A stretch of 64,000 bases of DNA, taken from Planctomycetota bacterium. Lineage in GTDB: Bacteria; Planctomycetota; Planctomycetia; Pirellulales; Pirellulaceae. The position numbers and the translations under genes were made by a program. Location of the stretch: the NCBI GenBank assembly GCA_026692865.1, contig JAPLNI010000028.1, positions 186,001 through 250,000 on the forward strand, read 5' to 3'. The notes beneath the pieces were generated by a model that made no database searches, was not told where the DNA came from, and worked only from the letters and a program-made list of their open reading frames with translations. Shown piece by piece: positions 4,344 to 10,564 of the stretch; the stretch's first letter is position 1; every line of letters starts with the position of its first letter.

Positions 4344-4823
4344 ATGAGTATTGTCAGTGAGTTCAAGGCCTTTGCGATGCGTGGAAATGTGATCGACTTG
4401 GCAGTCGGCGTGGTCATCGGCGGGGCGTTTGGAAAGATCGTCACGTCGCTTGTGGGTGATTTGATCATGCCGCCACTCAACTTATTGACCGCAAAATCGG
4501 GTGTCAACTTTAAGGACCTTTCGTACAAATCCGAGTTTTTGCTTCCTGTGGTGGATAAAGACGGCAAGACGGTCCTGATGGCCGATGGTGTCACTGCGGC
4601 GACTGAAACCAAGGAAGTTCCCATCCTCAATTACGGAAATTTCCTCCAAAACATCGTCGACTTTTTAATCGTTGCAGTAGCGATTTTTTTGGCCGTCCGC
4701 TTAATTAATTCGCTTAAAAAGCCTGCCGAGAATGCTCCACCGCCGGCACCTCCTGAGGATGTCCTGTTGCTGCGAGAGATCCGCGATGCGTTAGCAAAGA
4801 GTACACCTCGACGGATTGAATAG
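4344..4823 (+). CDS. mscL: Large-conductance mechanosensitive channel MscL
   Basis: MscL is the homopentameric inner-membrane channel that opens on osmotic downshock. The N-terminus MSIVSEFKAFAMRGNVIDLA and the first transmembrane helix VGVVIGGAFGKIVTSLV are almost canonical, as are the second helix (NIVDFLIVAVAIFLAVRLIN) and the cytoplasmic helix LLLREIRDALAK. The protein has 159 residues against about 136 in E. coli. The extra length lies mainly in the periplasmic loop (about 52-95: FLLPVVDKDGKT, then VTAATETKEVP). It is a single gene between the divergent cyclotransferase gene and the kinase gene. Confidence 0.96.
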   Translation: MSIVSEFKAFAMRGNVIDLAVGVVIGGAFGKIVTSLVGDLIMPPLNLLTAKSGVNFKDLSYKSEFLLPVVDKDGKTVLMADGVTAATETKEVPILNYGNFLQNIVDFLIVAVAIFLAVRLINSLKKPAENAPPPAPPEDVLLLREIRDALAKSTPRRIE

Positions 4824-4931: not shown

Positions 4932-7028
4932 ATGACGGACCCGGCTGATAAAGACCTTGATTTCTCTATCGCAGATGAGCACATTGCGAAGCGCCCGTCC
5001 AAACCGATCGCACGCGTGCTGGCTGGGAACGTGCCATTTGAGACCTCGTTAAGGTCTGGGGTAGATGCTTCGGAAGTCTCGGAGTCGGACGAGACCGTTC
5101 AGTATCTTGGAAATGTACCCGCAGTTTCCCTTTCAAACCCGGGGCGTGTTGTCGCAGTTGATAGAGAGTCGTCTGTCACAACCCAGCCTCTTCCATATCG
5201 TTTCGGCGATTACATCTTGGACCAAGTTTTGGGACGAGGGGGCATGGGGGTGGTTTACTTGGCGCATCAAGTCAACCTAGATCGTCGTGTTGCGATCAAG
5301 ATGATTCGCTCTGGGTGTTTAGCTGGCGAGAACGAGATTCACCGCTTCTACGCCGAAGCGCGAAGTGCTGCGCGTTTAGATCATGTAAACATCGTAACGG
5401 TACATCAGTGTGGTGAGATCGATGGTCACCATTACTTCAGTATGGACTATATCCCCGGGACCGATCTTGCACGCAGGATCAAAGAAGGCCCAATGTCCGC
5501 GATGGCTGCCGCAAGATACGTCCGCGATATCGCACGGGCCATCGCATACGCGCACTCTCAAGGAATTGTCCACCGCGATCTGAAGCCAGCGAACGTGCTG
5601 ATAAACGAGAAAGATGAAGTCGTCATCACCGATTTTGGTTTAGCAAAAATCATCGACTCCGAAGGGGGTTTGACTCAGAGCGGTGCAGCTTTAGGAACGC
5701 CAAGCTACATGTCTCCCGAGCAAGCCGATGGGGACACGGCCGCTCAAGGTCAGACTACAGACGTTTATTCGATCGGCGCAATTCTGTTCGCATTGCTGAC
5801 CGGCAAACCTCCGTTTCATGGTGCCACTGCCGTTCAAACCATTATGGATGTGATCCATAAGCCGGCCCCGGACACGGTTCTACTTCGTCCTGATGTTCCG
5901 CTGGACTTGGATACGATCGTCGCGAAGTGTCTCGACAAAAAGCCGGCGAATCGCTATCCGACTGCCGAATCGCTTGCTGAAGAACTTAATCGCTTTCTTC
6001 GTGGAGAGCCTATCCACTCGCGTCCCATTTCGTTCATCTATCGTTCGATGCGATGGCTTGCCAATGTGCCATTGATTGCAGCGTTGATCGGGCAGCGAAA
6101 CATCGAAGCGACCGCCGCTCATCGTCGCGTTCAGTATGCAATCATCGCGATGTTTTTTCTGTTCCCGCTTTTGTTGTTTGGGTCCTACTCGTTTCAAAAG
6201 CGCTGGGTTGATCGGCACTTGCCTTCCAAAATGCGAATCGCTGCAGGAGTACCCGAGGGCGTTTATCACCGTGTAGCGACCGAACTAGCAGAGCGGCTTG
6301 ATAAAACGCTTGGTGTTAAATTGGAGATCGAAGATACCGATGGTTCGAACGACAATCTTATGAGGTTGCTCAGCATGCAAGCTGAACTCGCGATGCTGCA
6401 GGCGACATCGGTTCGTAGCGACAAGGTAGCCGTGGTCGCACCGCTTTATTACGAAGCGGTACACGTTGTCGCACGCACTGATCGCAGCATCAACGAGATC
6501 AAGGACTTGGCTGGTCATCGCGTTGCAGTCGGATTAAAAGACTCCGGGACAAATTCCGCCGCGACCTTTGTTCTCGATGCCTACGGAATCGGGAGCGAAT
6601 CTTTTCAGCCCGTCATGGTCGATTGGACAAAGTTAGACTCGGACCCGACAATCGACGCGGCATTTCTCGTCATGAAATCGGGACATCCGCGAATTCGCGC
6701 ATTACTCGAGTCTGAGCAATTCCATCTGCTTCCAATCTCCGATGCGCAGTCACTATCCCTGACCGAGCCGACTTATAAATCACTAGAACTAAACGCGAAA
6801 GACTATGAAGTTTTAGGCGAGAAGCGAATCGAAACTCTCGCGACTACCGCCTTCTTGGCAACGTCCATCAATGCGCCAAGCCGTCTCGTGACCGAATGTT
6901 TGAAGGCCCTATATTCGGCAGAATCTGACTTCGAAGGGCTTATTCCACCAAAAAGAGCCGCGAATTGGGTCGGTCTGCCGTTTCATCCGGCGTCGCGCGC
7001 TTACTACCGAACTATTCTAGAACAGTAG
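4932..7028 (+). CDS. Membrane Ser/Thr protein kinase with C-terminal TAXI-type solute-binding domain
   Basis: A 698-residue protein. After a ~90-residue N-terminal stretch there is a complete Hanks-type kinase domain (about 92-365): glycine loop GRGGMGVVY at 101-109, Lys123 in VAIK, catalytic HRDLKPANVL (Asp216), DFGLA at 234-238 and the SPEQ version of the APE motif. One transmembrane helix follows at about 401-421. The remaining ~270 residues resemble TAXI-family TRAP-transporter binding proteins: RIAAGVPEGVYHRVATELAE, a GSNDNLMRLLSMQAELAM segment, then IKDLAGHRVAVGLKDSGT. That places a ligand-binding module outside the inner membrane and the kinase inside, so it is probably a one-protein sensor. 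No transporter gene is adjacent. Confidence 0.87.
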   Translation: MTDPADKDLDFSIADEHIAKRPSKPIARVLAGNVPFETSLRSGVDASEVSESDETVQYLGNVPAVSLSNPGRVVAVDRESSVTTQPLPYRFGDYILDQVLGRGGMGVVYLAHQVNLDRRVAIKMIRSGCLAGENEIHRFYAEARSAARLDHVNIVTVHQCGEIDGHHYFSMDYIPGTDLARRIKEGPMSAMAAARYVRDIARAIAYAHSQGIVHRDLKPANVLINEKDEVVITDFGLAKIIDSEGGLTQSGAALGTPSYMSPEQADGDTAAQGQTTDVYSIGAILFALLTGKPPFHGATAVQTIMDVIHKPAPDTVLLRPDVPLDLDTIVAKCLDKKPANRYPTAESLAEELNRFLRGEPIHSRPISFIYRSMRWLANVPLIAALIGQRNIEATAAHRRVQYAIIAMFFLFPLLLFGSYSFQKRWVDRHLPSKMRIAAGVPEGVYHRVATELAERLDKTLGVKLEIEDTDGSNDNLMRLLSMQAELAMLQATSVRSDKVAVVAPLYYEAVHVVARTDRSINEIKDLAGHRVAVGLKDSGTNSAATFVLDAYGIGSESFQPVMVDWTKLDSDPTIDAAFLVMKSGHPRIRALLESEQFHLLPISDAQSLSLTEPTYKSLELNAKDYEVLGEKRIETLATTAFLATSINAPSRLVTECLKALYSAESDFEGLIPPKRAANWVGLPFHPASRAYYRTILEQ

Positions 7029-8668: not shown

Positions 8669-10564
8669 TTATGTCCAACGTCTTAACCAGAGCTCGAGCA
8701 TCAGCAAATTCCACAGCCGGTAGCCTTCGTTGGTTCGCTCCGATAAGTGAGAATCGATTAGCCGTTTAATAGCTTCGGGCCGGACGTACTCGTGGCAACG
8801 TGTGTCGGTACCTAGCAGCATATTTGCCGTCTTCTCTCGCAATGGGCCGCGGAACCATGATGCGATTGGGATTCCAAAACCCATTTTGGGGCGGTCCCAA
8901 ATTTCGGGTGGTATCAGGTCATAGAAAGCGTCTCTCAGAAGTCGCTTACCACGTCGCCACCGATATTTTAAGTGGGATGGAAGCGAGGCAGCAAACTCAA
9001 CTAGTCGATAGTCTAGAAACGGCTGACGAGCCTCCAGGCTGTTTCCCATCGACGCGATGTCTACTTTCGTCATTAAGTCGCACGGCAAATAAGTCTGCAT
9101 GTCGGCAATCGAGGCTCGCGAAATCAAATCGCGATCTGGCGTTTTATTCCAAGCTTGCTCCAAAAACGAGAACGGATCACAATCCGGCAGCTGCTCGACG
9201 AACGACTCCTGATACATGTCTGAACGCGTCGCCTCGTTAAAAATCTGTAGCCATCGCATGTATCTTCTTGCCGGCGGTTCTCCCAAGGCTTCTCCGAATC
9301 GTTTGACGCGTCGAATAAAAGAGCGACGGTTATTGGATTCTTTCCAGCGTTGCACAATGGAGCTTTGCAAAAGCGGATGCAGCGGCATAAATTTTCGGAC
9401 TTTCTCGCTTAGGTGCAACGCTTTGTAACGCTCATAGCCTGCGAAAAGCTCATCGCCACCATCGCCACTCAATGCGACCGTGACTTGCGTGCGAGTTTGT
9501 TCGCATAGATACCAAGTAGGGACCGCAGAGGAATCACTGAAGGGTTCGTCGAAGTGATAAGCGAGCGTATCCAGAACAGAAAGAGCATCGGGAGTTACTT
9601 CGAATCGACGATGTTCGGTACCGATGTAGGAAGCTACTTTTTGAGCGTAACTTGTTTCGTCAAAATCAGCATCTGAAAACCCGATCGCAAATGTTTTAAT
9701 CGGTGTTTGCAATTGCTTTTGAGCAATCGCAACAATAAGCGACGAATCGATACCGCCTGAAAGAAATGCGCCTAGGGGAACATCGCTCCGAAGTCGCAAA
9801 GACACTGCATCAGTGGCAAGCTCGCGAACTTCCTCAATTGCTTGCGATTTCGTCTTTGCCTCTTCGCGGTTCCAGTCAATCGACCAATAAGACTTGGTTT
9901 GAAAGTCTTCTCCTTTATAAACACCGACATGGCCAGGCGGCATTTTTTTTACCGACTGATAGATTGACCAAGGATGGGGAATGTATTGATACGTAAAATA
10001 CATATCCAACGCAGTTGGGTCTATTTTTCGCGACAGGTTCGGGATTTCGCAGAGCGATTTGAGCTCGCTGGCGAATGCCAGTCGGCCATTCTCTACGGAA
10101 TAGTAGAGTGGTTTCTTTCCCATTCGATCACGAGCTAAAACTAACTGCTGGCGATTGCTATCCCAGATCGCAATAGAAAACATTCCGTTTAGTTTTGTAA
10201 AGCATTCGATCCCCATCTCTTCATATAAATGGACGATCGTTTCGGTGTCGCTCGCGGTCGTGAATTTGTGCCCGGCACCTTCCAGTCGATGCCGTAATTC
10301 ACGATAGTTGTAGATCTCTCCATTGAAGACAATCTGAATCGATCCGTCTTCATTTCCCAGAGGTTGATGACCACCCGCCAAATCGATAATCGAAAGCCTT
10401 CGAAAACCGAGTGCGACTCCCGCTGCCGATTCGCTTCGCGATTGCCAATAAGTCCCTTCATCGTTTGGGCCACGATGAATGAGCGAATCGGTCATCCGTC
10501 GAAGCGTACTTCGATCGATTGCCGTGTCGTCACGATACCAGACAGCTCCTGTTATGCCGCACAT
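8669..10564 (-). CDS. asnB: Asparagine synthase (glutamine-hydrolysing)
   Basis: A 631-residue two-domain amidotransferase that makes asparagine from aspartate, ATP and glutamine. The N-terminal glutaminase begins MCGITGAV, so Cys2 is free to act as nucleophile after Met removal, and contains NGEIYNY at 81-87. The synthetase half has the PP-loop SGGIDSS at about 269-275, VALSGDGGDELFAGYERY, and a conserved end (LVEFAASLP, KMGFGIPI). Size and domain order are those of the long AsnB form common in polysaccharide clusters, but no such cluster is next to it. It is transcribed alone. Confidence 0.94.
   Translation of the reverse strand: MCGITGAVWYRDDTAIDRSTLRRMTDSLIHRGPNDEGTYWQSRSESAAGVALGFRRLSIIDLAGGHQPLGNEDGSIQIVFNGEIYNYRELRHRLEGAGHKFTTASDTETIVHLYEEMGIECFTKLNGMFSIAIWDSNRQQLVLARDRMGKKPLYYSVENGRLAFASELKSLCEIPNLSRKIDPTALDMYFTYQYIPHPWSIYQSVKKMPPGHVGVYKGEDFQTKSYWSIDWNREEAKTKSQAIEEVRELATDAVSLRLRSDVPLGAFLSGGIDSSLIVAIAQKQLQTPIKTFAIGFSDADFDETSYAQKVASYIGTEHRRFEVTPDALSVLDTLAYHFDEPFSDSSAVPTWYLCEQTRTQVTVALSGDGGDELFAGYERYKALHLSEKVRKFMPLHPLLQSSIVQRWKESNNRRSFIRRVKRFGEALGEPPARRYMRWLQIFNEATRSDMYQESFVEQLPDCDPFSFLEQAWNKTPDRDLISRASIADMQTYLPCDLMTKVDIASMGNSLEARQPFLDYRLVEFAASLPSHLKYRWRRGKRLLRDAFYDLIPPEIWDRPKMGFGIPIASWFRGPLREKTANMLLGTDTRCHEYVRPEAIKRLIDSHLSERTNEGYRLWNLLMLELWLRRWT

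Follow-up and report, generated by a model that had tools for sequence, protein, structure and literature searches.

A transmembrane Hanks-type kinase with a predicted glutamate-type TAXI sensor domain, conserved in a planctomycete family and putatively rewired in the genus of the window

The window examined here, by which we mean the whole 64,000-nucleotide stretch from positions 186,001 to 250,000 of contig JAPLNI010000028.1 (assembly GCA_026692865.1; Planctomycetota, Pirellulaceae), contains a gene whose product was described in an initial annotation, made from the letters alone, as a complete Hanks kinase joined by one transmembrane helix to a C-terminal domain resembling the TAXI receptors of TRAP transporters (Table 1). 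This architecture was borne out by profile searches, in which the protein matched the Pfam family Pkinase (E 3.9e-51, residues 96-348) and the C-terminal region matched two TAXI-type models above their cut-offs, the Pfam family NMT1_3 (E 6.6e-24, 85.4 bits vs. a cut-off of 27, residues 436-693) and NCBIfam TRAP_TAXI (122.3 bits vs. a cut-off of 84.35). Both motifs that had been cited for the TAXI likeness are present, at residues 435-454 and 528-540. Residues 403-421 are the sole strongly hydrophobic segment, with a mean Kyte-Doolittle value of 2.04 (runner-up 1.16), and the catalytic set is complete, the VAIK, HRDLKPxN, and DFG motifs all being intact; the protein thus has the catalytic Lys, HRD, DFG, transmembrane segment, and domain past the membrane that characterize a Hanks-type receptor kinase. 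The PknB-type PASTA kinase model NF033483 aligned to the kinase region only (298.8 bits vs. a cut-off of 450) and no PASTA domain was among the Pfam matches, and when a link to PADLOC defence kinases was checked, the 25 matches listed covered the kinase domain.

Table 1. Features of the kinase-TAXI receptor gene, with positions counted from the first letter of the window
Feature	Position	Strand	Basis or remark
Kinase-TAXI receptor gene	4932..7028	+	ATG to stop, uninterrupted frame, 698 aa
N-terminal segment, residues 1-89	4932..5198	+	lacks the approximately 50-aa N-terminal motif present in 86/94 kinase-TAXI ORFs
Hanks Ser/Thr kinase domain, residues 96-348	5217..5975	+	Pfam Pkinase; K123, E142, HRDLKPAN 214-221, DFG 234-236
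Single transmembrane helix, residues 403-421	6138..6194	+	hydrophobicity (Kyte-Doolittle)
Extracytoplasmic TAXI (NMT1_3) sensor domain, residues 430-698	6219..7025	+	Pfam, NCBIfam, and solved-structure matches
Pocket residue Y445 (= VcGluP Y45)	6264..6266	+	profile alignment
Pocket residue S472 (= VcGluP S75)	6345..6347	+	profile alignment
Pocket residue Q490 (= VcGluP Q93)	6399..6401	+	profile alignment
Shortened loop, residues 491-507, 17 residues	6402..6452	+	alignment vs. TtGluBP (31) and VcGluP (32)
Pocket residue E508 (= VcGluP E125)	6453..6455	+	profile alignment
Pocket residue G539 (= VcGluP G156)	6546..6548	+	profile alignment

The nearest solved relative of the sensor domain is TtGluBP (1us4/1us5), found with a single-sequence query at E 7.2e-16 along with other TAXI proteins, and 1us4 matched a 21-row profile of the sensor family at E 7.8e-37. 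A two-lobed flytrap fold is predicted for the domain through this profile homology because a structure model of the domain, predicted from two sequences only, had a mean pLDDT of 33.8. Two findings that would have spoken against the initial annotation, a C-terminal region without a periplasmic-binding fold and a domain on the cytoplasmic side, were looked at: the region matched a periplasmic-binding family, and the one transmembrane helix separates the domain from the kinase, so that, reading the topology from domain order and hydrophobicity, the kinase would be cytoplasmic and the TAXI domain extracytoplasmic.

The architecture is no local oddity. A TRAP_TAXI search over 199 genomes of the same family gave matches in at least 159, which fall into three sizes (transport-size proteins, proteins of approximately 430-510 aa, and frames of at least 600 aa), and a profile of the kinase-linked sensor matched in at least 116 of the 199 at E<=1e-25 with at most 12 candidates scored per genome. 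When 98 loci, picked mostly for frames of at least 600 aa, were examined with local HMMs, kinase and TAXI domains were found together in at least 94 ORFs from at least 92 of the 199 genomes and at least 23 of the 68 genera, the other four loci (L174, L175, and the contig-edge stretches L191 and L192) being without such an ORF. All 21 members of a first set matched both Pkinase and NMT1_3 in Pfam. A hydrophobic segment (mean Kyte-Doolittle >=1.6) separates the two domains in 94/94 ORFs, the strict Lys/HRDLKPxN/DFG set is retained in 86/94 kinases (seven deviate from HRDLKPxN and one from DFG), and the smallest verified fusion measures 614 aa. In a phylum sample of 392 genomes, at least 70 of which had a match with at most six candidates scored per genome, the 30 loci that were inspected showed a kinase only in the window's own locus and in G038, which belongs to the same family. 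Long TAXI frames from other families (20 loci plus L061, L069, and L071) were without a kinase in 23 of 23 cases; these represent all other-family frames of at least 600 aa among the matches listed, plus one of 575.

A tree was built from 84 TAXI domains, of which 40 were kinase-linked (no more than two for any one genus and paralogue), 12 were drawn from a set of 30 transport-type proteins, 29 were membrane-anchored without a kinase, one was from a channel fusion, and two were from proteins of known structure. All kinase-linked rows fell on one side of a branch with an SH-aLRT support of 95, in a quick search that included one long row and used SH-aLRT as its sole support measure, and this branch points to a single fusion event. 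The neighbours of these rows are seven TM-TAXI-TM proteins, a grouping with a support of just 79, which gives a weak indication that the sensor belongs with the membrane-anchored TAXI proteins and not with the transport-type ones. Two genomes carry divergent second kinase-TAXI paralogues (L172 in G025 and L173 in G153) that have no adjacent ECF sigma factor gene, N-terminal motif, or glutamate pocket, and in G104 (contig C1) the kinase gene is apparently split (L050, L201), the N-terminal motif standing in a separate 166-aa frame approximately 1.5 kb upstream.

Several other TAXI proteins met in these searches merit mention in their own right. Members of a large class of TAXI proteins, among them one in the window's own genome (L034, G000:C47:17192-18166) and most of those at L058-L086, have the domain flanked by transmembrane helices with a cytoplasmic tail of approximately 100 residues (by eye), mostly have a glutamate-type pocket, and may be receptors themselves; Pfam matched only periplasmic-binding-type families in L034, L058, and L073. 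In two ORFs of G282 (L071 568-2478 on C4 and L210 1551-3488 on C3), a TAXI domain is joined to a pentameric ligand-gated ion channel: L071 matched NMT1_3 at 161 bits, Neur_chan_memb at 43.7 bits vs. a cut-off of 28.1, and LGIC_1 at 61.9 bits, below the cut-off, and L210 matched NMT1_3 at 187.9 bits and Neur_chan_memb at 26.6, just below the cut-off. The pocket of L071 has the full YSQEG set, which makes this ORF a candidate for a planctomycete Cys-loop channel gated by glutamate. L227 (1710-3947, G305:C1) combines a TAXI domain (NMT1_3, 75 bits) with a Slo-like RCK domain (39 bits vs. 24) and is possibly a ligand-gated potassium channel, and tandem TAXI domains, with two or more matches per ORF, were found in other planctomycete families (L211, L213, L216, L217, L219, L224, and L225).

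The TAXI solute-binding protein VcGluP binds L-glutamate through Y45, S75, Q93, E125, and G156, together with further main-chain and water contacts; Y, Q, and E hold the amino group and S and G the alpha-carboxylate, and the key determinants are Y45 and Q93, with affinity falling 213-fold in Y45A and 990-fold in Q93A (PMC11574862). In BP0403, which binds glutamate as well, the corresponding Y and Q are likewise key residues (PMC12344293). We took chains 9ibo/8s4j as VcGluP since their numbering, shifted by 29, agrees with the published residue numbers (PMC11574862). By profile alignment, all five residues are present in the window sensor as they are in TtGluBP and VcGluP, and over the 94 kinase-TAXI ORFs they are kept in 91 (Y445), 77 plus 12 with T (S472), 92 (Q490), 87 plus 6 with D (E508), and 91 (G539), with Y-[ST]-Q-[ED]-G complete in 88; the pocket is wholly or partly lost in three (L190, L172, and L173). 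Among the membrane-anchored TAXI proteins without a kinase, YSQEG was found in 18 of 29 and YSQQG in seven; Y-S-Q-E-G also occurs, by eye, in 4ddd, a TAXI protein of unclear ligand. The initial annotation had seen no substrate clue in the adjacent genes, and this stands for the neighbours within the window but not for the protein itself, whose pocket, as aligned, is of the glutamate type and so predicts a ligand class.

The likeness stops short of the side-chain end of the pocket, where VcGluP S40, Y46, H123, and Y200, which make water-mediated contacts to the side-chain carboxylate, are not kept in the window sensor: the counterparts of the first three are V440, H446, and Y506, and that of Y200 is L or V depending on the alignment. 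The recognized side chain may therefore differ, which makes glutamate itself less certain; as the conserved positions are those that contact the amino and alpha-carboxyl groups, the ligand is most safely predicted to be an L-amino acid. The same observation lends some weight to the idea that the receptor binds an anion other than an amino acid, such as 2-oxoglutarate, an aromatic acid, or a short-chain acid. The ligands of the TAXI class are diverse, with 2-oxoglutarate and orthophthalate systems among those listed, and Q93 is found in 54% of a published alignment and is thus no proof of glutamate (PMC11574862). We regard this idea as unlikely, though it deserves to be taken seriously, for the residues kept are the ones that in glutamate binding engage the amino group (Y, Q, and E) and the alpha-carboxylate (S and G), and 30/30 transport-type TAXI proteins from this bacterial family have other residues at the Y, Q, and E positions, showing F-[ST]-N-N-G throughout, with Y, Q, or E in 0/30 (L003-L032, chosen for the best TRAP_TAXI scores and not as a random sample).

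A purely structural or docking role for the TAXI domain, with no functional ligand site and with the signal carried by a protein partner (a TM-TAXI-TM protein, another binding protein, or a component of the envelope), is improbable. Binding proteins are able to relay a signal by way of a partner, as in GlnH-GlnX-PknG (PMC9769921), and the divergent paralogues L172 and L173 keep the architecture despite the loss of the pocket; the five pocket columns, however, are among the best kept of the domain, ranking 7, 9, 11, 19, and 35 of 269, with four of them within the best 19. The loop between Q490 and E508 is 17-18 residues long in 94/94 kinase-TAXI ORFs and 28 in 30/30 transport-type proteins, and a 17-residue loop also occurs in 13/29 membrane-anchored TAXI proteins; its shortening may represent the loss of a part that is superfluous without a transporter. 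A search of the window's own genome (99.42% complete) for the fused TRAP membrane component (TIGR02123) gave no match at E<=0.01, and the data favour the proposal, made at the outset, that the TAXI module has become the sensor of a kinase switch.

In most relatives, the kinase gene has a sigma factor gene as its neighbour. Adjacency was scored on the 90 loci (four shorter ones being excluded) whose upstream sequence spans 700 bases or more or shows an ECF, and an ECF sigma factor gene, identified with a local HMM built from eight of the linked ECFs, lies directly upstream on the same strand in 62 of them at distances of -29 to +320 bases; in G044, a 63rd case, the ECF overlaps a kinase start that was called too early. 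Nine of nine linked ECFs scanned matched Sigma70_ECF, as well as TIGR02984 (Sig-70_plancto1) at E<=0.001, and that of L053 scored 233.7 bits against TIGR02984 (cut-off 183.75). Linked ECFs score 202-373 bits, and a genome without the ECF next to the kinase gene can have it at another place, unlinked copies reaching 303 (G028), 269 (G154), and 247 bits (G104), well clear of the next ECFs of these genomes, which score 170-173. At the level of genomes (ECF at E<=1e-56, at most 15 candidates scored in each of the 199), 89 have both ECF and kinase-TAXI, three the kinase only, 13 the ECF only, and 94 neither (Fisher p 9e-38, ignoring kinship), and a hand count of genera gave 22, 1, 7, and 38, respectively (p 8e-11). 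The ECF is consequently present in 89/92 kinase-TAXI genomes. Two of the three kinase-only genomes are those of the window's genus, and the third, G127, has a fragmentary ECF next to its kinase gene; among the 13 ECF-only genomes, G124 and G138 show pieces of TAXI sequence at contig edges.

For the linked ECFs, a charge switch of the ECF43 kind was weighed and rejected, as the DxxD of sigma region 2.2 is kept in 60/62 (one has ExxD and one is truncated). ECF groups other than ECF43, several of them with planctomycete examples, have a DAED-like motif and may work differently (PMC8999054). Across the neighbourhoods of 20 loci, a PQQ/BamB-like gene, a histidine-kinase-like gene, and an EAL/GGDEF protein each recurred in three to five. 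In the window, an MscL channel gene (4344-4823) lies 108 bases upstream of the receptor gene on the same strand; an osmotic link through glutamate was dropped because MscL was not seen to recur as a neighbour, falling outside every cluster (at least three loci) among the 25 listed for the 20 loci. The window also contains, at 8669-10564, an asparagine-synthase-type amidotransferase whose best NCBIfam model is the XrtA/PEP-CTERM amidotransferase (671 bits vs. a cut-off of 817).

The approximately 50-residue motif that precedes the kinase domain in most of the family has the consensus LDxALAxYLRxxDAGExxDRExFLxxxPExAxxLxELLDAAD. Among the 94 kinases compared, it is missing from both kinases of the window's genus, from G104, G170, and G183 (contig or start problems), from G114, and from the paralogues L172 and L173. 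Weaker matches occur in other kinases (E 5e-7 to 5e-3); in G137 and G186, eight of eight such matches are followed by a kinase, and four of the eight have an ECF within the approximately 1.5 kb examined. A search of the whole of the window's own genome gave zero motif matches at E<=0.01. Likewise, no ECF gene was found within 1000 bases upstream of the window's receptor gene, and with every candidate scored, no ECF at the level of the orthologues was found either in its own genome (best 107 bits) or in G059, a genome of the same genus that is 87% complete (best 155 bits). The joint absence of ECF and motif in this one genus suggests that the motif is a part that serves the ECF partner. G059 holds one weak motif match (25 bits) in an ECF-linked ORF other than the TAXI kinase, directly behind its 155-bit ECF; this second ECF/kinase-type pair of the genus (G059:C479:26293-27061) consists of the ECF followed by a 714-aa frame with the weak motif.

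Given that the window's own genome is without an orthologue-level ECF, the output of the relatives is not transferable to the window copy, and the description of the receptor as a one-component switch in the initial annotation may fit this genus only, most relatives having a co-encoded and co-occurring ECF. Neither genome of the genus having such an ECF and neither of its kinases the N-terminal motif, the window copy might be an orphan that is being lost or is kept for an unrelated role. We consider this quite improbable, as catalytic and pocket residues are intact and comparison with the copy of the same genus at L002 gave dN/dS values of 0.011 for the kinase, 0.072 for the TAXI domain, and 0.17 for the N-terminus; under such purifying selection the window copy is very likely functional. 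An annotation artefact, be it two adjacent genes read as one or a pseudokinase, has next to no likelihood given the single uninterrupted frame, the intact VAIK/HRDLKPxN/DFG motifs of the window copy, and the recurrence of the architecture, and with 94 ORFs in 92 genomes sharing it and a low same-genus dN/dS, a chance or misjoined ORF is ruled out.

The interpretation that we favour, at a probability of roughly 0.6, is a transmembrane receptor kinase for an amino acid, probably glutamate, that has been rewired in the window's genus; within this model, we infer the ligand, the direction of the response, and the substrate of the kinase from comparative sequence data. The C-terminal TAXI flytrap, lying outside the inner membrane, would close around an L-alpha-amino acid, with L-glutamate or a closely related compound (for instance glutamine or pyroglutamate) as the likeliest ligand. 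Closure would be transmitted through the one transmembrane helix and alter how active the Hanks kinase in the cytoplasm is, probably by dimerization and autophosphorylation. In most of the family, the kinase would then act on, or with, the planctomycete ECF sigma factor encoded beside it. Since neither this partner nor the N-terminal motif that goes with it was found in the window's genus, the receptor that was kept there would have to act on other substrates. More tentatively, and with the odds somewhat against it, the family as a whole could be regarded as one of bacterial glutamate receptors in which a flytrap built covalently into a Ser/Thr kinase switches a DAED-keeping ECF by a mechanism other than that of ECF43, with the two uncoupled and the receptor rewired in the window's genus.

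The stimuli of bacterial Ser/Thr kinases have been named as an outstanding question (PMC6069109). The TAXI kinases offer an unusually concrete predicted ligand, which is directly testable on the purified domain because the pocket of the sensor is conserved and structures of related proteins with known ligands have been solved. In most relatives, the output should be readable by a reporter assay since the sigma factor is co-encoded, and the window's genus provides a natural experiment in which the receptor was kept and the partner is gone.

Kinase fusions with ABC-type binding proteins occur in actinomycetes. Among the papers listed by searches of open-licence PMC texts, none was seen from its title or abstract to report a TAXI-kinase fusion, and the terms NMT1, TAXI, and PF16868 are absent from the main text of a paper on Planctomycetota kinases, the supplements of which hold 105 accessory domain groups (PMC11032199). 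The proteins closest to the sensor, TtGluBP (1us4/1us5) and VcGluP (9ibo/8s4j), belong to its family according to the profile search (E 7.8e-37 and 2.4e-27) and share its five pocket residues, but are transport proteins with a Q-E pocket loop of 31 and 32 residues, whereas the window domain is fused behind a kinase and a transmembrane helix and has a loop of 17. BP0403-GltS resembles the window protein in that a TAXI domain with a Y/Q glutamate pocket serves a partner other than TRAP, the GltS symporter, and differs in that it is still engaged in transport, the word "kinase" being absent from the main text of its description (PMC12344293). In the GlnH-GlnX-PknG system of actinobacteria, a binding protein for amino acids outside the cytoplasm has been proposed to govern a Ser/Thr kinase (PMC9769921), as is suggested here, but through three separate proteins, while sensor and kinase form one chain in the window. 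The systems PknS-EcfK and PknT-EcfP (ECF43), in which the sigma factor genes adjoin a Hanks-kinase gene, come near in layout, as PknS, like the TAXI kinases, is a Hanks kinase that spans the membrane, extended at the N-terminus and with its C-terminus in the periplasm; its periplasmic part, however, consists of TPR repeats and not a TAXI domain (PMC13147305), and the DxxD (DAED) motif that the ECFs linked to TAXI kinases keep is absent from the sigma factors of ECF43 (PMC13147305, PMC8999054). In this last respect, the linked ECFs are like the planctomycete groups ECF59, ECF61, ECF62, and ECF217, which have DAED or a similar motif and have been proposed to be regulated by Ser/Thr protein kinases (PMC8999054).
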